Part shown: positions 18,780 through 63,586 of the stretch, piece by piece
Layout of the letters: every line of letters begins with the position of its first letter
How positions within the stretch are numbered: the stretch's first letter is position 1
Assembly (NCBI GenBank): GCA_017529425.1
Contig: JAFXNQ010000050.1
Location: forward strand, 1 to 64,000
Source of the DNA: Bacteroidales bacterium
GTDB taxonomy: Bacteria; Bacteroidota; Bacteroidia; Bacteroidales; UBA932
DNA length: 64,000 nucleotides
Direction: 5' to 3'
Made by a program: the position numbers and the translations under genes
The notes under the pieces: model-generated
What the model was told of the DNA's origin: nothing
Seen by the model: only the letters and a program-made list of their open reading frames with translations
Database searches by the model: none

Positions 18780-19526
18780 ATGAACGAATCCAAGATAAAT
18801 ACATACTCATATACGGTGATGCCGCAGGATCTGGACGGCAAACGTCACTTCAGAGCCGTATCACTGGAGATGATGCTGCTCAACATCGCCGGCAAAGCCG
18901 CAAACGAACGCAATTTCGGAGCCTTCAAACTGATTGACAACGGCGGTATCAGCTGGGTGCTGCTTAAGTTCGCTGTCGAGATGAGTTCTATGCCCGTTGA
19001 AGACGAGATTCTGAGCGTCAGCACATGGGTGGGGAAGGTCGGCAGCCTGCTCACGACCCGTAACTTTGAAATCCGCAATCAGTCAGGAGAGGTCATCGGC
19101 TACGCCGCCACTGAATGGGCCCTCATCAACCTTGAGACCAGGCGCCCCATTAACATCGCGGCCGACAATGAGATAGCTGAGTGCGCAACCGGGGTGACAG
19201 TGCCGGTGACACTGCCCGGGCGGCTCACCGTACCGGAACCTGACCAGAACACTCCCAGACACACGGTCAAGGTATCATACAGCGATATCGACTTCAACGG
19301 CCATACCAACAGTACGCAGTATCTGCAGTGGATGCTGGATGCCTATCCCATAGAGAAGATATATGAAAGCCGGATAGCCCGCCTGGAGATAATCTATGTC
19401 CACGAGGTGCTGTACGGCGAAACGGTGGATGTTTACCATATGGACCAGAATGACGGCCCAACCCTGTTTGTCGTGAAAGACCAGAAGGGTAACGACTGCG
19501 TCCGCGCCCGAATCTTATGGAAATAA
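18780..19526 (+). CDS. Acyl-ACP thioesterase
   Basis: A 248-residue double hot-dog protein of the FatA/FatB-like acyl-ACP thioesterase family, which releases free fatty acids from acyl carrier protein. N-terminal hot dog: about residues 8-135, including TEWALINLETRRP. C-terminal hot dog: about 150-248, with the conserved SYSDIDFNGHTNSTQYLQW stretch that carries the Asp, Asn and His typical of the active site. The -7 box lies eight bases before the ATG, suggesting a leaderless message. The nucleoside hydrolase gene follows after four bases. The acyl-phosphate module at 56.6-61.4 kb could reuse the fatty acids it frees. Confidence 0.9.
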   Translation: MNESKINTYSYTVMPQDLDGKRHFRAVSLEMMLLNIAGKAANERNFGAFKLIDNGGISWVLLKFAVEMSSMPVEDEILSVSTWVGKVGSLLTTRNFEIRNQSGEVIGYAATEWALINLETRRPINIAADNEIAECATGVTVPVTLPGRLTVPEPDQNTPRHTVKVSYSDIDFNGHTNSTQYLQWMLDAYPIEKIYESRIARLEIIYVHEVLYGETVDVYHMDQNDGPTLFVVKDQKGNDCVRARILWK

Positions 19527-54091: not shown

Positions 54092-56578
54092 ATGCACAGG
54101 ATATTTTTGCCGATATACAGGTTTTTCTGCCGCAACAAAGCGCTCCTGTATATACTTCTGACTGTAACAACCGTTGTTTTTGCCACCTTCGGGCTGAGGG
54201 TGACTTATCAGGAAGATATAACCGAACTGCTCCCCACCAGCAGCGTTGAGAGCGAGCTGGCGTTCGGCTCCATTGGGCTAAAGGACAAGATTTACATTCA
54301 GGTCACATCTGCCGGTGAAAGGCTCAGCACAGAAGAACTCGCAGAGCGCACCGACGCATTTGTTGCTCTGCTGGAGAAAAAGGATTCCACCGGTAAATTT
54401 ATAAGCAACATTCTCAGCAAACTGGAAACCGAGACTGCGCTCAACGCTCTGGACTTTGTACTGGGGCACATACCCTCCTTTATTGACACAAATGCCTACC
54501 CTGCTTTCGCCGAAGCGGTAACACCCTCCGCTATACGCGAGAAGCTTGAGGCTGATGCCGCCATCATAATGGAAGACGAAACGGGCGATGCCACACAGGC
54601 CATCGGGTACGACCCGCTTAACCTGCGCGACGCGGTGATCGGCGACCTGCTGGGCGACGTTTCCGGCGGATACAACATAATTGACGGCCACTTCTTCTGC
54701 CCCGACAGCACCGTGGCGATGGCATATCTTGCCCCCGCCTTCAAGACCCTTGACAGCGGCACCGCAACCGCTTTCTCCAGGATGATGCGCGCCACAGTGC
54801 GTGAGTTTGAAAAGAGCTATCCCGACGCCAACGTGCTTTACCACGGCGAACCCATCGGCAGCGTATCCAACGCCACCAGAATCAAAGGCGATCTGGCATT
54901 GACGGTGGGCATATCCATAGTGCTGATACTCATCCTTCTGATGATTTGCTTTAAGAGTATCTCGCTCGTGTGGCGGATTCTGGTGCCGATTATTTACGGT
55001 TCTCTGTTCGCCCTGGCGTGCGTATTCTGGATTAAGGGAGAGATGTCTCTGATGGCGCTGGGATTCGGCGCGATAGTGCTGGGCGTGGCCATCAGTTACT
55101 GCCTCCACCTGCTCATACATCACTACTACGTTGGCGACGTGGAGAAACTGCTCATAGAAGAGTCGACCCCGGTATTCCTGGGGTGCGTGACCACTATCGG
55201 CGCCTTCCTGAGCCTGCTTTTCACCGACAGTGAGCTGCTGCGTGACTTTGGGATGTTCTCTTCGCTGGCGCTTGCCGGGAGCACGCTGTTTGCGCTGATA
55301 TTCCTCCCCCACTTCCTCCCGAAGAAGAAAGGGAATACCGATAAAGCGACATTCAAGGCCATCGACAAGATCAACTCCTTCCCGTATGACCGCAACAAAT
55401 GGATTCTTTCCATACTGTCGCTGATTATAATAGTGGGCATATTCTTCTCACCTTACGTCAAGTTTGACAGCGACCTGCGCAACCTCGATTACAACTCTGC
55501 CGATGAGTTGGAGAGCGAAGCTCTGTTCAACGCCAAAAACAACGACGGATACGAGCATCTCTATTATGCCACCGTATCTACCGATTTGGACGAAGCGCTG
55601 GAGGCTAACCTGGCCCTCTCCGGCATACTGGACTCTCTGCTAAAAGCCGGAACGGTGCACAGCTACTCCGACATGGTATCCAAGTTGTTTATCACAAACG
55701 ATTTGCAGCAGCAGCGCATCAATGCCTGGAACAAGTTCTGGACCCCGCGCCTGAAAAGCGAGGTGCTCTCCACAATAACCGCAGAGGCGGGCCGCGCGGG
55801 TATCTATCCCGATATGTTCCAAGGGTTTGAAACCATCCTGAACACCCCCTACGAGCCGGCATCACTGCTGGAAGCCGGTGTTATCCCCGACAATCTGCTG
55901 TGCAACTATATCGAACGCAACGCCGATGACCAGTATATGGTGTTCAGCGACGTGTCAATGGCGGCAGAAGATAAGGACATCGTCACCGTAGAAGCGGTAA
56001 AGAACCCCAGGACGTTTATCCTGGACCCCTTCTACTACTGCAAAGATATGGTGCAGATGATTCACGACGACTTCAACATCGCCGTGTGGATATCTTCTCT
56101 GTTTGTGCTGCTGATACTGTTGCTCAGCTACCGCAACATCATCACTGCCCTGCTGAGCTTTATCCCGATGGGCGTCAGCTGGTTTGTGGTGCAGGGATAT
56201 ATGGCCTTAATCGGTCTGGAATTCAATCTGATCAACATAGTTGTCTCAACATTCATTTTTGGCGTCGGAGTGGACTACAGCATCTTCATTACTGAGGGTT
56301 TGCTGTCAGAAGCGCGCACCGGCAGCCGGGCTATGTTAGGCCACCATAAGGCGGCTATCTTCTTCTCTGCCGCAATCCTTGCGATTGTGACCTCCTCGCT
56401 GCTGTTCGCCCGCCATCCTGCCATCCGCTCCATCGGTCTTGCGACCCTGATCGGTATGGCATCGACAATTATGATCTCCTATTCTCTGCAGCCATTCCTC
56501 TTCCGTCAGATGATGAAGATTCCGGCCTATAGGAAAAGTGTTATGAAAAAGAAACCTTATGTCGCAGATAATAGATAG
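54092..56578 (+). CDS. MMPL-type RND exporter
   Basis: An 828-residue RND-superfamily membrane protein with two membrane bundles. Membrane span 1 follows the basic N-terminus. A large periplasmic domain (about 40-265) precedes helices 2-6 with GAIVLGVAISYCLHLLIHHYY. After a second periplasmic domain comes FIFGVGVDYSIFITEGLL, matching the first half. The sequence resembles MMPL/hydrophobe exporters of lipids. The overlap with fakA is 20 bases, strong evidence for one operon. Fatty acids or lipids are plausible cargo. Confidence 0.88.
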   Translation: MHRIFLPIYRFFCRNKALLYILLTVTTVVFATFGLRVTYQEDITELLPTSSVESELAFGSIGLKDKIYIQVTSAGERLSTEELAERTDAFVALLEKKDSTGKFISNILSKLETETALNALDFVLGHIPSFIDTNAYPAFAEAVTPSAIREKLEADAAIIMEDETGDATQAIGYDPLNLRDAVIGDLLGDVSGGYNIIDGHFFCPDSTVAMAYLAPAFKTLDSGTATAFSRMMRATVREFEKSYPDANVLYHGEPIGSVSNATRIKGDLALTVGISIVLILILLMICFKSISLVWRILVPIIYGSLFALACVFWIKGEMSLMALGFGAIVLGVAISYCLHLLIHHYYVGDVEKLLIEESTPVFLGCVTTIGAFLSLLFTDSELLRDFGMFSSLALAGSTLFALIFLPHFLPKKKGNTDKATFKAIDKINSFPYDRNKWILSILSLIIIVGIFFSPYVKFDSDLRNLDYNSADELESEALFNAKNNDGYEHLYYATVSTDLDEALEANLALSGILDSLLKAGTVHSYSDMVSKLFITNDLQQQRINAWNKFWTPRLKSEVLSTITAEAGRAGIYPDMFQGFETILNTPYEPASLLEAGVIPDNLLCNYIERNADDQYMVFSDVSMAAEDKDIVTVEAVKNPRTFILDPFYYCKDMVQMIHDDFNIAVWISSLFVLLILLLSYRNIITALLSFIPMGVSWFVVQGYMALIGLEFNLINIVVSTFIFGVGVDYSIFITEGLLSEARTGSRAMLGHHKAAIFFSAAILAIVTSSLLFARHPAIRSIGLATLIGMASTIMISYSLQPFLFRQMMKIPAYRKSVMKKKPYVADNR

Positions 56579-58190
56579 TACCCTCTATTCCGACATGCTC
56601 CGTCAGGGGGCTGCCAGCCTCTATAAAGACAAGACCGCCGTAAATGACCTCAACGTATTCCCTATCCCTGACGGCGACACTGGCGACAACATGTACATGA
56701 CCCTCAAAGCGGGGGCTGGTGAAGCTGGCGGGAAGCAGGGAACCCTTTCCCAAACTGCACACAATGCAGCTCAGGGTATGCTGCTGGGCGCCCGCGGCAA
56801 TTCCGGCGTGATACTCTCGCGCATCTTCGCCGGACTGGCAAAGGGGCTGGAGGGGCTGGAGGAGGCCGATGCCGCAGCTTTTGCGCGGGCCATGTCGGCC
56901 GCAGTCGAGGAGGCCTACGGGGCCATCCCCGTTCCTGTTGAAGGGACCATAATCACCGTACTCCGCGAAGGGGCGGAAGGGGCATCCGGCCGTTCACTCG
57001 AGGAGTATTTCGATACCCTGCTGGAGGCGATGCAAATCTCCCTGGACCGCACCCCGGAGAAGCTGGAGGTGTTAAAGCAGGCTGGAGTGGTGGACAGCGG
57101 CGGCGCCGGATTACTCTGTATATTCCGGGGTATGAACGAGGCGCTGCACGGAATCCGCCAGGCAGAAGATGCCGCCCCCGCAGCGGCACCTCAGGCGGCA
57201 GCCGTCAATCTTTCTAAATTCACGGAAGACAGCACCCTGGAGTTTGGATACTGCACCGAGTTCCTGCTGCGCCTGACCCGCGCAAAAACAAATCTGGAGA
57301 CATTTGACGTCAAGGAGCTGATTGATTGGCTGAACGCCAATGGCGAGAGCGTCGTTGCCTTCCGCGACGGCTCTATAGTGAAGGTGCATGTGCATACTTT
57401 CACCCCCGGACAGATCCTGGACCACTGCCAGCAATACGGAGAGTTCCTCACCCTCAAGATAGAGAACATGACGCTGCAGCACCACCAGGAGAGCAACCAG
57501 AACAACGCCTCCTTCAAGCGTCCCAAACAGAACTACGGCATTGTAACGGTGGCTGCGGGCGAGGGGCTGATAGCCGCCTTCAAGGAGAGCGGGGCCGACG
57601 TGGTGATTCCCGGCGGACAGACCATGAACCCCTCTACACAGGACTTTGTACAGGCGTTTGAACAGATAAACGCCGACACCATACTGGTATTCCCCAACAA
57701 CTCCAACATCAAGATGGCGGCAGAACAGGCCGCCAGCCTCTACAAGCAGGCCGATGTGAGGGTACTCCCCTCCACGACCATCGGCGAGGGATACTACTCG
57801 ATAGCCGCTGCCGACCGCGACTGCACAGACATCGACCGGGTTGTCTCCGACATCACCGCTGTGATGGAGAGCGTGGAGACCGGCATGATCTCCCGTGCCA
57901 TCCGCGATGCTGAAGGCGAAGGGGTAGATGTGGTAAAGGGCGATTTTGTGGGCTACCGGGGCAAGAGTATCCTCTCCGATTCACCCAACCGCGCCGAGGC
58001 GGCTTCCGCCCTGCTGGATAAGATGGGTGCCGGAGAGCGCGACGTACTGCTTGCCTTCACAGGCGAAGAGGTGAGCGAAGCCGAGGCTGAGCAGCTCCAG
58101 AACGAACTCAGCGCTAAATATCCCATGCTTGAAATAATGTTTAATTGCGGCCAACAGCCCATTTACGATTATATTTTTGTTCTATGCTGA
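56559..58190 (+). CDS. Fatty acid kinase subunit FakA-like (DAK2 domain)
   Basis: A 543-residue DhaL/DAK2-domain protein. The nucleotide- and Mg-binding motif DGDTGDNM is at 38-45 (Asp38, Asp40, Asp43). LGARGNSGVILSRIF and VVDSGGAGLLCIFRG also belong to the DAK2 domain (1-200). The rest, about 220-543, is the YloV/FakA-type C-terminal portion with VFPNNSNIKMAAEQAA. It should phosphorylate a fatty acid held by FakB to acyl-phosphate. It overlaps the MMPL gene at its start and fakB by seven bases at its end. Confidence 0.9.
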   Translation: MSQIIDSTLYSDMLRQGAASLYKDKTAVNDLNVFPIPDGDTGDNMYMTLKAGAGEAGGKQGTLSQTAHNAAQGMLLGARGNSGVILSRIFAGLAKGLEGLEEADAAAFARAMSAAVEEAYGAIPVPVEGTIITVLREGAEGASGRSLEEYFDTLLEAMQISLDRTPEKLEVLKQAGVVDSGGAGLLCIFRGMNEALHGIRQAEDAAPAAAPQAAAVNLSKFTEDSTLEFGYCTEFLLRLTRAKTNLETFDVKELIDWLNANGESVVAFRDGSIVKVHVHTFTPGQILDHCQQYGEFLTLKIENMTLQHHQESNQNNASFKRPKQNYGIVTVAAGEGLIAAFKESGADVVIPGGQTMNPSTQDFVQAFEQINADTILVFPNNSNIKMAAEQAASLYKQADVRVLPSTTIGEGYYSIAAADRDCTDIDRVVSDITAVMESVETGMISRAIRDAEGEGVDVVKGDFVGYRGKSILSDSPNRAEAASALLDKMGAGERDVLLAFTGEEVSEAEAEQLQNELSAKYPMLEIMFNCGQQPIYDYIFVLC

Positions 58191-59053
58191 CATTTTTCTC
58201 TGACACGGACTGCGACATCACCCCCAAAGAGTGTGCGCAGTATGGTATAAAGCTCATAAGCATGCCTTATACCGTAGATGACAAAGTCATTTATCCCTAC
58301 ATAGACTGGCAGGAATTCGACGCCCACGCTTTCTATGACATGCTCCGCCGCGGCACCATGCCCACTACGAGCGCCATGAGCGAAGAGTTTTACGTAAAGA
58401 CCTTCGAGCCGGAGTTCGCCGCAGGCAATGACATCCTCTACGTACACTTCTCATCTGCCACCTCCAACACTTTCACCATCATGAATCAGGCGCTGGAGAA
58501 GCTGCTGAAGAAGTACCCGGAGCGTAAATTTCATCATATCGACACTTTGGGCATCACTGCCCTCTCATATAACATCGTGCTGGAGGTTGCCGACCTGCTC
58601 AAAGAGGGCAAAACCCCAGAAGAGGTCGTGGAATGGGCCAAGGCAGAGGTTCCTAAATTCCCGATGTACTTCTTTGCCGATGACCTCAAATTCTTCCGCC
58701 GCAGCGGTCGCGTGAGCGGCCTTGCAGCCACCATGGGCGGCCTGATAGGCATCCGTCCCATAATCCATCTGGATGACACCGGCACCATGGTATCCATCGG
58801 CAAGGAGACCGGCCGCGCCAAGGCCATCGCCCGTCTGGTGCAGTATGTCGTGGATCTTGGAGACAACGTCAAGGATCATAGGGTGGTAATCGGGCACACT
58901 GACGTTCCCGAAATCGCCGCCGAAGCCGAGCGCCAGCTAAAGGCCAAATTCGGGGACGACCTGAACGTCATCATCCAGAACGTGAACCCCACCATTGGCA
59001 GTCACTGCGGCCCGAATGCACTGGGTATCTGCTTCCACGCAATCCACCGCTAA
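58184..59053 (+). CDS. Fatty acid-binding DegV protein, FakB-like
   Basis: A 289-residue DegV-family protein. It opens FFSDTDCDITPKECAQ and has the DegV motifs MPTTSAMSEEFY, VHFSSATSNTF and FFRRSGRVSG; a late VVIGHTDVPE strand follows. DegV proteins bind one fatty acid in a buried tunnel and present it to FakA. I use ATG 58184 since the 58145 frame runs through fakA. Together with fakA this is a complete acyl-phosphate-making pair. Confidence 0.9.
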   Translation: MLTFFSDTDCDITPKECAQYGIKLISMPYTVDDKVIYPYIDWQEFDAHAFYDMLRRGTMPTTSAMSEEFYVKTFEPEFAAGNDILYVHFSSATSNTFTIMNQALEKLLKKYPERKFHHIDTLGITALSYNIVLEVADLLKEGKTPEEVVEWAKAEVPKFPMYFFADDLKFFRRSGRVSGLAATMGGLIGIRPIIHLDDTGTMVSIGKETGRAKAIARLVQYVVDLGDNVKDHRVVIGHTDVPEIAAEAERQLKAKFGDDLNVIIQNVNPTIGSHCGPNALGICFHAIHR

Positions 59054-59065
59054 ATCCATCCGTAA

Positions 59066-60187
59066 ATGATAACCGTAGAACAGGTCACCACCAAACGGCA
59101 GCAGAAGGAGTTCTTAGAGTTCCCGCTGAAGCTGTACAAGGGTAACCCATGCTATACTCCCGCACTGTATATGGACGAAAAGAAGATGTTCCGCAATGAT
59201 TTCGTCTATAACGACATGTGCGAGCACGTCTACTTCAACGCCTATAAAGACGGCGTGATGGCGGGCCGCATCTCCGGCATTGTCCAGCGCGCCGCCAACA
59301 AAAAAAATAACCAGCGTCGCTGCCGCTTTATCCGCTTCGATGTGATAAATGACTTTGAAGTGGCAAAGAAGCTTTTCGATACCGTGGAGGCTTGGGCCCG
59401 CGCACAGGGGATGACAGAAGTCGTGGGGCCGCTGAGCTTCTCGGACCTGGAGCGGGAAGGATTGCTGATTGGCGGCTACGAATATCCCGCCACCTTTGAG
59501 GAGACATACAACTTCCCCTACTACGGCGAATTTATAGAGCGGCTGGGCTATCACAAGGAGGTCGACTGGACCAGCAGCCGCCTGCGCCTGGCCAAAGACT
59601 ATAACGGAGAGCTGGAGCAGATGGCAGATTATGTGCTGCGCCGCTACAACCTGCACCTGGCCACCGCCCGCAACACAAAGGAATATCTGGCTAAATATTC
59701 CGACGCATTCTTTGAACTGCTTGACAAGTCGTACGAGAACATCTACGGCTCGGTACCTTTCACTGATGCCATGAAAAAGCTGATGATGGACAACTTCAGC
59801 CTGATACTTAGCAAAGAGAATCTTATAATAGTGCTTGACGAGAACGAAAAGATGATCTGCATGGGGCTGGCATTCCCGGCTATCGGCGATGCCCTGAGAC
59901 CCTCCGGCGGACGTCTCACCCCAGGTGCGCTGATACGCGTGTTGCGCGCCATCAAGCATCCCAAGGTGCTGGATCTTGGACTGGTTGGTGTCGACCCCGA
60001 ATGGCTTAACCGCGGCATCAGCGTGGTAATTTCTGCCGCAATGGTCAAGATGCTCAAGATGCCCGGGGTGCTTTATGCAGAGACCAACATGAACCTGGAG
60101 GACAACTACGCCATCCAGAACCAGTGGAAACGCTTTGACGAACAGAAGATAAAACTGCATCGCTGCTATGTTAAAAATCTTGGTTGA
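59066..60187 (+). CDS. GNAT-like acyltransferase-family protein
   Basis: A 373-residue protein conserved in Bacteroidetes. It opens with a long region (EFLEFPLKLYKGNPCYTPAL) and shows two GNAT-like halves, ending VLYAETNMNLEDNYAIQNQW. The core GNAT acetyl-CoA loop (R/QxxGxG/A) is not obvious to me, so family membership rests on overall pattern. It lies between fakB and plsX (12-base gap, 20-base overlap), suggesting transfer of an acyl group from acyl-ACP, acyl-CoA or acyl-phosphate to an envelope lipid. That role is inference. Confidence 0.7.
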   Translation: MITVEQVTTKRQQKEFLEFPLKLYKGNPCYTPALYMDEKKMFRNDFVYNDMCEHVYFNAYKDGVMAGRISGIVQRAANKKNNQRRCRFIRFDVINDFEVAKKLFDTVEAWARAQGMTEVVGPLSFSDLEREGLLIGGYEYPATFEETYNFPYYGEFIERLGYHKEVDWTSSRLRLAKDYNGELEQMADYVLRRYNLHLATARNTKEYLAKYSDAFFELLDKSYENIYGSVPFTDAMKKLMMDNFSLILSKENLIIVLDENEKMICMGLAFPAIGDALRPSGGRLTPGALIRVLRAIKHPKVLDLGLVGVDPEWLNRGISVVISAAMVKMLKMPGVLYAETNMNLEDNYAIQNQWKRFDEQKIKLHRCYVKNLG

Positions 60188-61187
60188 TTGCTTTGGCGGT
60201 GACCATAGCCCTCAGGCCAATGTAGAGGGGGCGTTGATTGCCCTGAAACAATTCTGCGACATTCACATAATACTCACCGGTGATGAGGCGGCCATACGGG
60301 GCTGCCTTGAGGGCAAAGAGTATGACGCCGGCCGACTTGAGATAGTCCACGCACCCGAGGTTATCGGATGTGATGAAAAGCCCACCAGCGCTATCCGCCT
60401 CAAACGGGAGAGCTCCCTGATGAAGGCCATCCGTATGTTGCGCGACGACGACAGTACAGCCGCAGTGGTCTCCACCGGCAGCACCGGGGCATTGGTTTCA
60501 GCCGCCCTGACTCGCATCGGCCGTGTGCGCGGAGTGATACGCCCCGCCTTCTGCCCCATCCTGCCTACAATGGACGGCGGTCTGGTGGGCATCTGCGACA
60601 GCGGCGCAAACGTAGAGGTAAAGCCGGAGATGCTGCGCCAGTTCGCAATCATGTCCAGCCTCTATATGAAGCATGTCTATGGCGTCGACAGCCCCCGTAT
60701 TGCATTGCTGAACGTGGGCGAGGAGCCCGAAAAGGGTGATGAAATTCATCAAAAGGCACACATTTTGCTCACAGAAACTCCCGAAATCAATTTCGTGGGC
60801 AATATGGAGAGCCGCGACCTGCTTTCAGGACGCTACGACGTGGTTGTAGCCGACGGTTTTTCTGGCAACGTGCTGGTAAAGACAACAGAAGGCACCGCAC
60901 TGGAACTGCTCAAGAAGCTGAAGAAGGATATCTTCTCGCGCACCATATACAAGGTTGGGGCGCTGCTGATGAAGAAAATGTTTGCCGATGAAAAAGAGTT
61001 CATGAACTACCAGAACTACGGTGGAAGCGTGCTGCTGGGATGCTCCAAGACCGTTGTGAAGGGGCACGGTTCAAGCAATGCCGTATCGGTGGCAAAATGC
61101 ATTGAACAGGCCTATCGCATGGAACAAAGCTCCCTGGCCGCAAAGACAGAAAAAGTTATACTTAAATACGAGCATTACGAAGATTAG
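60168..61187 (+). CDS. plsX: Phosphate acyltransferase PlsX
   Basis: A 339-residue PlsX that interconverts acyl-ACP and acyl-phosphate. GGDHSP is at 10-15, STGSTGALVSAAL near 105, and a NVGEEPEKGDE motif near 184. VVADGFSGNVLVKTTEGTA and YGGSVLLGCSKTVVKGHGSS match the family. Here it converts acyl-phosphate from FakAB into acyl-ACP for elongation, or feeds phospholipid synthesis. It overlaps the GNAT gene by 20 bases and precedes the ACP by two. Confidence 0.95.
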   Translation: MLKILVDCFGGDHSPQANVEGALIALKQFCDIHIILTGDEAAIRGCLEGKEYDAGRLEIVHAPEVIGCDEKPTSAIRLKRESSLMKAIRMLRDDDSTAAVVSTGSTGALVSAALTRIGRVRGVIRPAFCPILPTMDGGLVGICDSGANVEVKPEMLRQFAIMSSLYMKHVYGVDSPRIALLNVGEEPEKGDEIHQKAHILLTETPEINFVGNMESRDLLSGRYDVVVADGFSGNVLVKTTEGTALELLKKLKKDIFSRTIYKVGALLMKKMFADEKEFMNYQNYGGSVLLGCSKTVVKGHGSSNAVSVAKCIEQAYRMEQSSLAAKTEKVILKYEHYED

Positions 61188-61189
61188 AC

Positions 61190-61417
61190 ATGTTTGACGA
61201 AGTTAGAACCATACTATCACGCCAACTTCGCGTCTCCCCCGATAAAGTGACCCTGGAGGCACATTTCAAGCGCGACCTGCACGCCGATTCGCTGGATATC
61301 CTCCAGCTTCTCATGCGGCTGGAAGACGATTACGGCGTGAGGATTCCCGACGAGGCCCTGGCAAAGTTCGAGACCGTGGGCGATGTTGTAACCTATTTGG
61401 ATTCTTTAGAAAAATGA
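61190..61417 (+). CDS. Acyl carrier protein
   Basis: A 75-residue four-helix ACP. The phosphopantetheine site is Ser34 in HADSLDILQL. The acidic helix II and RIPDEALAKFETVGDVVTYL end are typical. It is a second carrier beside plsX and may be dedicated to this cassette; the main fatty-acid ACP may be elsewhere. Its stop overlaps the following gene's start (ATGA). Confidence 0.93.
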   Translation: MFDEVRTILSRQLRVSPDKVTLEAHFKRDLHADSLDILQLLMRLEDDYGVRIPDEALAKFETVGDVVTYLDSLEK

Positions 61418-61935
61418 AACGCATAACTCTGATTGTCTGCTGCCTGATGCTCTCCCTGGCATCATTTGCACAGAAGTACGACACCGGCTTCAAGCAGACC
61501 CACCGCCTGAGAATTTCTGGCAAGACCACCATCATGAAAGGGCAGCTTACCTATGACGGGGAAGAGCAGCTCTCTATGATTTACTCCGATCCCGAAGGTG
61601 ACTATTTCATCATCGACGGCACCCAGATCAAGATGAACCTGCTGGGAAAGAAAGCCACCGTGGACTCAGATAAAGTCCCGATGACAAAACTGCAGCGCGC
61701 CACCCTGCTCAACTGCCTCAACGGCAACTGGGAACAGGCTGCCAAGGACAACAATGCAAAATCGACGGTAAACGAAAAGCTTGGCTTCCGCACCGTGGAA
61801 ATAGCATCGGACAAAGTGGTTCCCCGCGGCGGATATAAATCACTCAGTATTACTTATCGCATCAAAGACGGCAAGGTAACCCGCCTGGTTCTGGAAGACG
61901 CAGTCGGTATAGAAGACACCTACGAAATGCAGTAG
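61414..61935 (+). CDS. LolA-like periplasmic lipid-carrier candidate
   Basis: A 173-residue secreted protein (signal ending ASFAQ). Beta-strand-rich sequence (TTIMKGQLTYDGEEQLSMIY, then YFIIDGTQIKMNL) and a half-barrel length resemble the LolA/outer-membrane lipoprotein carrier fold. It overlaps the ACP gene by four bases and closes the FakAB-PlsX cassette. LolA-like proteins with an MMPL exporter and ACP occur in aryl polyene and related lipid gene clusters. Function here is inference. Confidence 0.7.
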   Translation: MKRITLIVCCLMLSLASFAQKYDTGFKQTHRLRISGKTTIMKGQLTYDGEEQLSMIYSDPEGDYFIIDGTQIKMNLLGKKATVDSDKVPMTKLQRATLLNCLNGNWEQAAKDNNAKSTVNEKLGFRTVEIASDKVVPRGGYKSLSITYRIKDGKVTRLVLEDAVGIEDTYEMQ

Positions 61936-61941
61936 TTTTCA

Positions 61942-61949
61942 TATCTTCG
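61942..61949 (+). promoter_or_regulatory. Near-consensus -7 box for the M64 gene
   Basis: TATCTTCG differs from TAnnTTTG at one base and lies five bases before ATG 61955. This is another case of a box next to a start codon. Confidence 0.3.
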
Positions 61950-61954
61950 TGATT

Positions 61955-63586
61955 ATGAAACGTTTCGGCAGGTTGTTCCCGGGCTGGCTAATCGCGGCGG
62001 CGGCAGTCGTGGCGATGGCTGCTCACTGCAGGCCCGAACCTCCCGAACCTCCTGACCCGCCGAAGCCTGAGGTACTGTTCATTGATACCGCCTACGATAT
62101 CTCGTGCGATGGGGCGACCATAACTTTCACGCTCGAAGTGACCGATGCCTGGAAAGCCACCGTTATCGGCGGCGGTTCCTGGTGCACCCTGGACAAGACT
62201 TCTGGCCCGGCCGGAACAATGTGCATCGTGGCCACCATTACCCCCAATAAGGAGCTCATTCCCAGAAATTGTCTTATAAAGCTGAAGATTGGCGATACCA
62301 CGGGAGAGATAACCATCAATCAGGCACAACTCAATGTTCTCACCGCCAGTCCAGACCAGTTTCAGGTACCGGCAGAAGGTGGTGTCTTCACCACGGAGAT
62401 TACCACCAACATAACATACGAGGTTACCCTGTCAGATGAGTGGATTACCTGGGACAACGGTTCCATAACCGTTTCAAGCAACCCTGACAGCGATGAACGG
62501 ACTGCCACGATCATACTGTCCGGCTCTGGCCTCACAAGCACCATTGCCATAACCCAATCCGGCATGACGCTCCCGCCTGAACCGCTGGACGGGATAGTTA
62601 CAGTGATGCAGAGCCACGCCAGAGGTAACGGTATCCCCCTGATTCTCATGGGCGACGCCTTCACCGCCGGGATGAATGAAGACGGGACCTACCGGGCCGC
62701 GATGGAGAGCGCTGTTGAAGCCTTCTTTGGTGAAGAACCGTACACCACCTTCCGGGATATGTTTGACGTGTATATGGTAAACGTCGTCTCTGACCAGTAT
62801 ACCGATTTCTCATCGGGTACATCCACTACTCTGGGGACCGGCTTCCATGGCGATGATATCGTAAGTGTAAACCTTGACAAATGCCAGGAATATGCACTGC
62901 TGGCTGTGGAAGAGGAATCTGTCCTGGACAGGTCCGTTATAATAGTACTGGCCAACCGCGAGACCCACTCCGGGCGATGCTTCCTCACCTTTATCGACAG
63001 GCAAGATGGTGCCGGCGAAGACGGAATATGCGGCCTGGCGGTGGCTGTCTCCGCACTGGGAACCAGTCACGACGACTTTGTGGGTCTGATACAGCACGAG
63101 GCCGGCGGACACGGCTTTGGCAAACTGGCAGATGAATATTCCTATGAGGGCATCGGTGCTATTCCGGAATCGGTCACAGAGACCTACAAAAGGCTTCAGG
63201 CGACTCACCACGCCTATGTGAACGTAGATTTTACCGACAATCCGGAGAGTGTTCTTTGGAGCCGGTTCATTGCCGACGAAAGGTACCGGGCAGAGAGTAT
63301 TGGAATATTTCCGGGCGGGTTCGGATACGAACTGGGGGTATGGCACCCCACCGGGCAGAGCATAATGAACCTTGATTATGGCGGTTACAACGCCCCTTCA
63401 CGTGAAGCTATCTACATAAGGCTGCACAAACTTGCATTCGGTGCCGGGTGGGAATATGACTTTGATGAGTTCGCGGCGTTCGATATCAAAAGTGAAGAGG
63501 TGATATCGCAGCAGGCACGTCACGCCGCCCGCTCCCTGCAACGGAAGATGGCACCCTGCCCGCCGCCGGTAATTATCGCCAGATAG
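61955..63586 (+). CDS. M64-family peptidase with two BACON domains
   Basis: A 543-residue secreted protein (signal ends near MAAHC; the -1 residue makes the lipobox uncertain). A proline-rich PEPPDPP segment precedes two BACON-like beta domains (about 45-118 and 120-205). The M64 peptidase domain has the zinc motif HEAGGHGFGKLADEY at 381-395 (His381, Glu382, His386, Asp393), with one residue more between the histidines than the HExxH in clostridial IgA proteases. M64 enzymes of gut Bacteroidales are thought to cut host or microbial proteins. It is followed by a convergent gene. Confidence 0.85.
   Translation: MKRFGRLFPGWLIAAAAVVAMAAHCRPEPPEPPDPPKPEVLFIDTAYDISCDGATITFTLEVTDAWKATVIGGGSWCTLDKTSGPAGTMCIVATITPNKELIPRNCLIKLKIGDTTGEITINQAQLNVLTASPDQFQVPAEGGVFTTEITTNITYEVTLSDEWITWDNGSITVSSNPDSDERTATIILSGSGLTSTIAITQSGMTLPPEPLDGIVTVMQSHARGNGIPLILMGDAFTAGMNEDGTYRAAMESAVEAFFGEEPYTTFRDMFDVYMVNVVSDQYTDFSSGTSTTLGTGFHGDDIVSVNLDKCQEYALLAVEEESVLDRSVIIVLANRETHSGRCFLTFIDRQDGAGEDGICGLAVAVSALGTSHDDFVGLIQHEAGGHGFGKLADEYSYEGIGAIPESVTETYKRLQATHHAYVNVDFTDNPESVLWSRFIADERYRAESIGIFPGGFGYELGVWHPTGQSIMNLDYGGYNAPSREAIYIRLHKLAFGAGWEYDFDEFAAFDIKSEEVISQQARHAARSLQRKMAPCPPPVIIAR

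Follow-up and report, generated by a model that had tools for sequence, protein, structure and literature searches.

A fatty acid kinase, PlsX and acyl carrier protein cassette with a YghO/CerS-family acyltransferase in Bacteroidales and Clostridia, and its possible role in lipid N-acylation

The window analysed here is a stretch of 64,000 nucleotides from a Bacteroidales bacterium (GTDB UBA932; assembly GCA_017529425.1, contig JAFXNQ010000050.1, positions 1-64,000, forward strand). It carries seven open reading frames (ORFs) on the + strand at 54092-61935, in the order MMPL-FakA-FakB-GNAT-PlsX-ACP-LolA, where ACP is an acyl carrier protein. This cassette is real, conserved, horizontally transferred and functionally coherent; its parts are all known, and what is new is their assembly. 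Genomes are labelled G plus a number (G000 holds the window's cassette), loci or stretches L, and contigs C. The genes, with the next one downstream, are:

54092-56578, + strand: MMPL/HAE-3 (HpnN-like) RND lipid exporter, 828 aa (matches to PF03176 and TIGR03480)
56559-58190, + strand: FakA, fatty acid kinase catalytic subunit, 543 aa (TIGR03599; DAK2, FakA_M and FakA_C domains)
58184-59053 (ATG at 58184), + strand: FakB/DegV fatty-acid-binding subunit, 289 aa (PF02645, TIGR00762)
59066-60187, + strand: tandem-GNAT acyltransferase of the YghO/CerS family, 373 aa, classed by hhalign, predicted fold and paralogues adjacent to serine palmitoyltransferase (SPT)
60168-61187, + strand: PlsX, acyl-ACP:phosphate acyltransferase (TIGR00182), the sole PlsX detected in the assembly
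61190-61417, + strand: dedicated ACP with a DSL site, 75 aa (PF00550 and NF002148 over cut-off)
61414-61935, + strand: LolA-like periplasmic lipid chaperone with a signal-like N-terminus, 173 aa (predicted fold)
61949-63586, + strand: BACON and M64-peptidase-like gene (PF13004, PF09471), outside the conserved core and possibly co-transcribed

A sequence-only reading of the window had described the seven genes as one block joined by overlaps and gaps of 12 bases or less. All seven ORFs are present, five recognised by curated models and the GNAT and LolA-like products by fold. The gaps are indeed this short (12 bases between FakB and GNAT, 2 between PlsX and ACP), but two overlaps, MMPL/FakA and GNAT/PlsX, are 20 bases long, the others being 7 (FakA/FakB) and 4 (ACP/LolA). 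Scans of the block for promoters and terminators gave nothing that splits it convincingly.

FakA scores 522 bits against TIGR03599 (cut-off 396), with PF02734, PF21645 and PF13684 all over cut-off, and matches 7w7h_A over its full length (E = 1e-110). FakB matches the DegV model PF02645 with 194 bits and the FakB1 structures in the PDB with E values of 5e-15 to 4e-13. Both fall short of the NCBIfam equivalog cut-offs (FakA_VfrB NF038248, 429.6 against 975 bits; FakB1 NF038249, 92.2 against 350 bits), and by sequence they are classed as FakAB at the family level, not as these equivalogs. PlsX scores 345.5 bits against the TIGR00182 equivalog (cut-off 243.4). The transporter reaches 69.6 bits against PF03176 (cut-off 20.5) and stays below the HpnN equivalog scores (NF052374, 65.7 against 1100 bits; TIGR03480, 123.7 against 751.9 bits); its top PDB match by sequence is HpnN 5khn, and its profile scores place it at the level of the MMPL superfamily only. 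The LolA-like protein is below cut-off for Pfam LolA (13.8 bits, cut-off 23.6), and its sole NCBIfam match is NF053544 LolA2_flexi (43 bits, cut-off 125). Structure prediction, which the sequence-only reading had proposed for this protein and for the GNAT, gave a LolA fold and a tandem GNAT fold, respectively. The LolA-like model (pLDDT 89) finds LolA structures as its best Foldseek matches (E = 8.8e-9, TMq 0.65, 17% identity), which supports its assignment as LolA-like.

The same reading had seen in the GNAT-like protein an enzyme that could pass acyl groups to an unknown acceptor. Acyl transfer is still its best interpretation, but the protein is not anonymous: sequence comparison identifies it as a tandem-GNAT protein of the YghO/CerS family. 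Its AlphaFold model has a mean pLDDT of 90.6, and VIA-align returned tandem GNATs as best matches (Z 20-21.5, rmsd 3.6-3.9 over ~300 residues). N-myristoyltransferases come next at about Z 15, a shared fold that does not show function; no long-chain-base N-acyltransferase appeared in the fold lists, which does not exclude one. As a single protein the GNAT found no solved relative at E ≤ 1, and its profile gave only weak GNAT matches. A search of plasmid records returned 44 records and included E. coli YghO, with 25% identity over the whole length (E = 5e-32), and hhalign of the GNAT against YghO-type proteins gave Prob 100 and E = 5.2e-42 over 353 columns at 25% identity. Full-length YghO-type homologues were found in E. 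coli PN43, Rahnella, Roseomonas and Diaphorobacter. Their neighbours in E. coli PN43 and Rahnella are a fatty acyl-AMP ligase, an NAD-dependent epimerase, an ACP and an SPT-like aminotransferase; in Diaphorobacter they are LptF/G, CDP-alcohol transferases, a ligase, an ACP and an SPT-like gene, and in Roseomonas LptF/G, an NTP transferase and other lipid genes, with no SPT within the stretch. The GNAT matches in Vescimonas, Bacteroides and Chloroflexota have unrelated gene neighbours. PMC9386255 groups yghO with CC_1154, a Caulobacter gene needed for dihydroceramide, and PMC11087976 locates bCerS in the cytoplasm.

Paralogues of the GNAT lie near an SPT gene in 7 of 17 loci of the window's family, as seen within 1.5 kb of flank; in four of the seven only 22-42 bases separate the aligned parts, and in G015 SPT, a KdsR-like gene and the GNAT are consecutive. 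G000 holds two further paralogues, on C8 and C38. The one on C38 is preceded by an AMP-ligase and an ACP (L033:7214-10060), and a ligase-ACP-GNAT operon also stands tail to tail with the cassette at L047:12164-15021 and L052:12015-14854. This parallel suggests that YghO/CerS members are fed by a dedicated ACP, charged either by a ligase or by FakAB plus PlsX. At L038 an AMP-ligase and a GNAT paralogue are divergent. A role for the cassette GNAT as a glycine-lipid acyltransferase of the GlsB type was considered and rejected: G000 has, elsewhere (L033:12306-14188), a GNAT (PF13444) and acyltransferase pair which we take to resemble GlsB/GlsA of glycine lipid synthesis, and these belong to other Pfam families and gave no blastp match below E 1.

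Gene order was surveyed with one genome per species, and all counts over 80 loci refer to the best 80 of 430 relatives (by record title 45 Bacteroidales or Bacteroidia, 34 Clostridia-type and 1 unassigned, some titles reading only 'Clostridia bacterium'). Among the loci with enough flank, FakA-FakB-GNAT-PlsX is complete in 36/39 Bacteroidales and 18/28 Clostridia loci. Because the order is conserved in this way, chance grouping is excluded, and the synteny survey proposed with the sequence-only reading thus found a non-random order, clearly contrary to the random order in relatives that the reading had named as a refutation. The Bacteroidales exceptions are L041 and L056, without FakA and FakB, and L111, where a GNAT orthologue (56%) stands in a Bacteroidales record without any cassette partner nearby; ten Clostridia loci are without one or more partners. 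The ACP was detected in 41 of 43 Bacteroidales loci. Within the window's family, a GNAT homologue of some kind occurs in 111/119 genomes, and orthologues (53-87% identity) in 12 genomes besides G000, from three genera. FakB-GNAT-PlsX is consecutive at 11 of these 12 loci, one PlsX being truncated by a contig end. At the twelfth (L003, G033) the genes are divided between two contigs, GNAT-PlsX-ACP-LolA on the first and MMPL-FakA close to the end of the second, which is either a real split or a misassembly; in L041, a record of the same G033 contig, 3.4 kb of other sequence precedes the GNAT. Apart from MMPL, LolA and one ORF cluster, no other conserved neighbour of the core was found in more than 7 of the 80 loci; the ORF cluster occurs at 43 loci, its representative running antisense over cassette genes. 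The unit claimed at the outset is to be divided: FakA-FakB-GNAT-PlsX(-ACP) is the core, common to Clostridia as well, and MMPL and LolA are a diderm addition. An AMP-ligase fused to a PP-binding domain lies 2.4 kb downstream of an ACP-less clostridial cassette (L075:13524-15416).

Identity of the window's PlsX is 69-91% with the other cassette copies of Bacteroidales and 57-69% with those of Clostridia; it drops to 38-46% for additional PlsX proteins in Clostridia carriers and to 33-35% for PlsX proteins native to its own family. In a PlsX tree of 79 rows all cassette copies fall into one clade (100/100), native Bacteroidales PlsX proteins are separate (100/100), and the Bacteroidales cassette copies are a single group (100/93) amid the Clostridia ones. 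In a GNAT tree of 54 rows the cassette clade again has full support (100/100), with Bacteroidales and Clostridia not cleanly separated inside it. The cassette thus probably reached Bacteroidales from clostridial stock, in a pattern as from one transfer; since the forks that nest the Bacteroidales copies are moderately supported (bootstrap 81-92) and the PlsX tree came with a long-branch warning, this direction is likely rather than certain.

A Bacteroidales version of FakAB linked to export had been called notable, FakAB being best known in Firmicutes. FakAB as such is not exceptional there, for sub-cut-off FakA matches occur in 68 of 344 genomes of the order, but an unfused FakA over cut-off is rare (4/344). 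The one sub-cut-off match that was opened (L202:1438-3249) combines DAK2, FakA middle and DegV parts in one polypeptide, a fused FakA-FakB. In the family, FakA over cut-off is found in 14/119 genomes, the 13 with the cassette plus G083. In the latter, a family member without the cassette, FakA adjoins PlsY (G083:C13:101215-104433), which could reflect transfer or contamination.

The relation of the cassette to phospholipid synthesis was assessed from the distribution of PlsX and PlsY, which occur in 70 and 51 of the 119 family genomes. PlsX is present in every one of the 13 cassette genomes and PlsY was detected in none of them, although the assemblies are not all complete, whereas PlsY is present in 46 of the 57 other PlsX genomes (Fisher 5e-8, uncorrected for kinship). 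Neither gene is present in genomes of the same genus that lack the cassette (G014, 100% complete; G066 and G079), and the lack of PlsY is thus a trait of the lineage and not an effect of the cassette. With PlsY in 0/13, acyl-phosphate cannot feed PlsXY phospholipid synthesis in the family carriers. PlsX over cut-off was present in 38 of 40 orthologue-bearing genomes searched, with two or three copies in 13, nearly all Clostridia; since these 13 have a second PlsX, that of the cassette is an extra set there.

Of the 32 long-flanked Bacteroidales loci, 17 carry MMPL together with LolA, 10 carry neither and five carry one alone (LolA in 4, MMPL in 1), a co-occurrence with Fisher p = 1.4e-4, uncorrected for phylogeny. 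Neither gene is found at any of 13 Clostridia loci. MMPL lies upstream of the core. LolA, on the downstream side, has the direction of the operon in the window's relatives and is convergent to it in another lineage. Cassette genomes G051 and G113 gave no MMPL match anywhere. Full-length MMPL matches of at least 49% identity in the family are all in cassette genomes, those outside being G080 (48%, interrupted) and G041 (47%). Around six non-cassette MMPL genes (38-47% identity), a LolA match was found in three stretches and an ACP match in two. The wide neighbourhood search among these six covered G041, where the genes near MMPL encode a LolA scoring 107 bits against LolA2_flexi, along with ketoacyl synthase, thioesterase, SDR, FAD oxidoreductase and acyltransferase proteins, a gene content as in aryl-polyene or flexirubin clusters. 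A cluster of this kind may be where the exporter pair came from.

From these elements we propose, at a probability of about 0.5, that the cassette is a transferable lipid-assembly operon in which FakAB, PlsX and the ACP supply acyl-ACP to an N-acyltransferase and MMPL and LolA export the product. FakB would bind a free fatty acid and FakA would phosphorylate the bound chain to acyl-phosphate. The production of acyl-phosphate by FakAB and its conversion by PlsX and an ACP, as first suggested from the sequence alone, is retained as the best interpretation of these genes, with the refinement that the yield would be acyl-ACP; we infer that PlsX acts in this direction, shifting the chain onto the operon's own ACP. 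With acyl-ACP as donor, the tandem-GNAT enzyme would then N-acylate an amine lipid, most likely a long-chain (sphingoid) base, and so make dihydroceramide or something closely similar. In diderms the MMPL transporter and the LolA-like carrier would bring the product to the outer membrane, a role also foreseen in the sequence-only reading and still the best account of the pair. That reading as a whole is partly supported: its outline of FakAB, PlsX, ACP, GNAT and export stands, and the identity of the GNAT, the extent of the core, the rarity of FakAB and a link to a distant thioesterase have been revised.

Known systems resemble parts of the cassette. Purified E. faecalis FakA, FakB and PlsX make acyl-AcpB in vitro with a dedicated AcpB (PMC12594616). 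The Firmicute exogenous pathway shares with the cassette the kinase pair, PlsX, a separate ACP and the course from acyl-phosphate to acyl-ACP; the cassette differs in uniting these genes in one operon with a CerS-family acyltransferase, in the lack of a detected PlsY in the Bacteroidales carriers examined, and in the exporter genes added in diderms. The rhodobacterial ceramide cluster (aasR-acpR-spt-cerR-cerS/yghO) likewise has dedicated fatty-acid activation onto a dedicated ACP near a YghO/CerS-family acyltransferase; the cassette, however, has FakAB and PlsX in place of the acyl-AMP ligase, no SPT or reductase inside, and MMPL/LolA rather than LptF/G-type genes. Aryl polyene and flexirubin clusters combine an MMPL exporter, a LolA-like carrier and an ACP, whereas the cassette is without ketoacyl synthase or polyene genes and its acyl chain would derive from free fatty acid. 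The SPT-KdsR-GNAT row of Bacteroidales (G015, L264) contains a paralogous GNAT with full-length homology; unlike it, the cassette GNAT forms a separate clade (100/100), has its own acyl supply and adjoins no SPT.

Several results weigh against the proposal. The GNAT has no Pfam or NCBIfam match over cut-off (PF00583, 17.2 bits, cut-off 20.7). The cassette is not beside SPT: in G000 the SPT gene (639.6 bits to NF047600, cut-off 640), with a KdsR-like gene directly behind it, lies on C63 and the cassette on C32, and the one SPT/Kbl-type match within the 80 cassette loci is at L117 (36%). The C8 paralogue of G000, located between HtpG and a DnaJ/TerB protein, is 57% identical to the SPT-adjacent gene of G014, its likely counterpart, and is a better ceramide-synthase candidate in this genome than the cassette GNAT. 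No SPT match came from cassette genomes G051 (99% complete), G131, G135, G143 and G155, and those from G128, G137 and G149 were weaker and Kbl/BioF-like. For one clostridial family of 103 genomes, SPT-like genes (at least 390 bits) and cassette-type GNATs (at least 440 bits, plus the split gene of G562) were counted by hand. SPT-like genes occur in 86 of the 103, in 37/40 carriers against 49/63 others (Fisher p = 0.06), and in 24 of 31 genomes without a GNAT homologue; SPT as an obligate partner of the cassette in Clostridia is thus unsupported. No ACP was detected at 15 of 32 Clostridia loci (17/32 have one), and a motif search of ~1.6 kb downstream at 16 loci, in case tblastn had missed it, gave a single chance-looking antisense match. 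Towards the sphingoid base point the SPT and KdsR-like genes of G000 and the SPT-like genes of most carriers tested, nine from Clostridia being 38-45% identical to E. coli SPT. A GNAT-profile search of 23 clostridial-type genomes found the cassette-type gene as the sole full homologue in 22, which makes it usually the sole CerS-family candidate in SPT-bearing Clostridia carriers; G126 has a second full homologue, and G137 adds only a fragment with stops. SPT-like and KdsR-like gene pairs were also seen in rumen and gut Clostridia carriers (L226-L233, L257-L263). A sphingoid base is the likeliest single acceptor, not a demonstrated one.

The same points bear on the main alternative, that the acyl-ACP supply and the N-acyltransferase are as proposed and the acceptor is some other amine, such as an amino acid, a small peptide or an amino sugar, so that the product would be an N-acyl amino lipid. 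The carriers with no detected SPT, the separation of the cassette GNAT clade from the SPT-adjacent paralogues, and nearest solved folds that include glucosamine and other small-amine acetyltransferases besides N-myristoyltransferases make this a serious possibility, though one short of an even chance; the functional links found for the GNAT family point instead to ceramide clusters, and most tested carriers do have an SPT-like gene. That the GNAT takes acyl-phosphate directly from FakAB, with PlsX and ACP merely returning surplus chains to fatty acid synthesis, would fit four Clostridia loci with FakA-FakB-GNAT and neither PlsX nor ACP (L095, L101, L107, L116), which also count against the proposed supply. 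Five other Clostridia loci have GNAT and ACP without FakAB nearby (L078, L097, L098, L102, L112; one flank is short in L097 and L102), however, and the paralogue module is ligase-ACP-GNAT, so that direct use of acyl-phosphate is very improbable.

That fatty acids are simply scavenged or recycled into phospholipid for the membrane, as in Firmicutes, with the GNAT as a passenger or a regulatory protein acetyltransferase, is improbable as well, if somewhat less so. FakAB, PlsX and ACP are the known Firmicutes route for exogenous fatty acids (PMC12594616), and PlsC or elongation could use acyl-ACP; against this stand the absence of PlsY from the 13 cassette genomes, the position of the GNAT between FakB and PlsX in both phyla, and the second PlsX of many Clostridia carriers. 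The exporter pair could also be a mere neighbour of the core, unrelated to its lipid, and export an aryl polyene-like pigment or serve lipoproteins. The company of the G041 relative and the 10 of 32 Bacteroidales cassettes without either gene speak for such independence, which we nevertheless consider unlikely: no ketoacyl synthase or other aryl-polyene gene was found among the ORFs tested around 54092-61935, the two genes co-occur around the cassette, and the full-length MMPL matches of at least 49% identity in the family are confined to cassette genomes.

Beyond the seven genes, the BACON/M64-peptidase ORF begins 13 bases past LolA and an AmiA-like gene ends 56 bases ahead of MMPL, and with neighbours this close the transcript may extend further. 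The BACON/M64-peptidase-like gene, whose N-terminus is lipoprotein-like, also adjoins the cassette in L042, L045 and L046. The acyl-ACP thioesterase at 18780 that had been suggested as a supplier of fatty acids is a real gene (18780-19526; PF01643, PF20791), but nothing links it to the cassette; a nucleoside hydrolase follows it.

No published account of such a cassette was found among the titles listed from the open-licence literature, which does not show that it is unpublished. The gene set common to rumen bacteria of two phyla probably serves to load free fatty acids onto a carrier protein for a relative of ceramide synthase. The fuller proposal, tentative and less likely than not, is a fatty-acid-kinase-driven N-acylation pathway for sphingolipids or similar lipids that moved between monoderm Clostridia and diderm Bacteroidales, the diderms gaining an outer-membrane route through MMPL and LolA. 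If it is true, fatty acid kinase gains a role outside phospholipid synthesis, and a lipid pathway has crossed the border between monoderms and diderms, with its envelope-specific part joining later. Among monoderms, those Clostridia of the gut and rumen that have SPT-like and reductase genes would be further candidates for making sphingolipids, so far perhaps unrecognised. The transport of sphingolipids from the inner to the outer membrane of diderms was called unknown in 2024 (PMC11324152). The exporter often added in outer-membraned carriers may be a lead to the surface transport of such lipids, and if MMPL and LolA carry the cassette's product, that question becomes testable through two genes.

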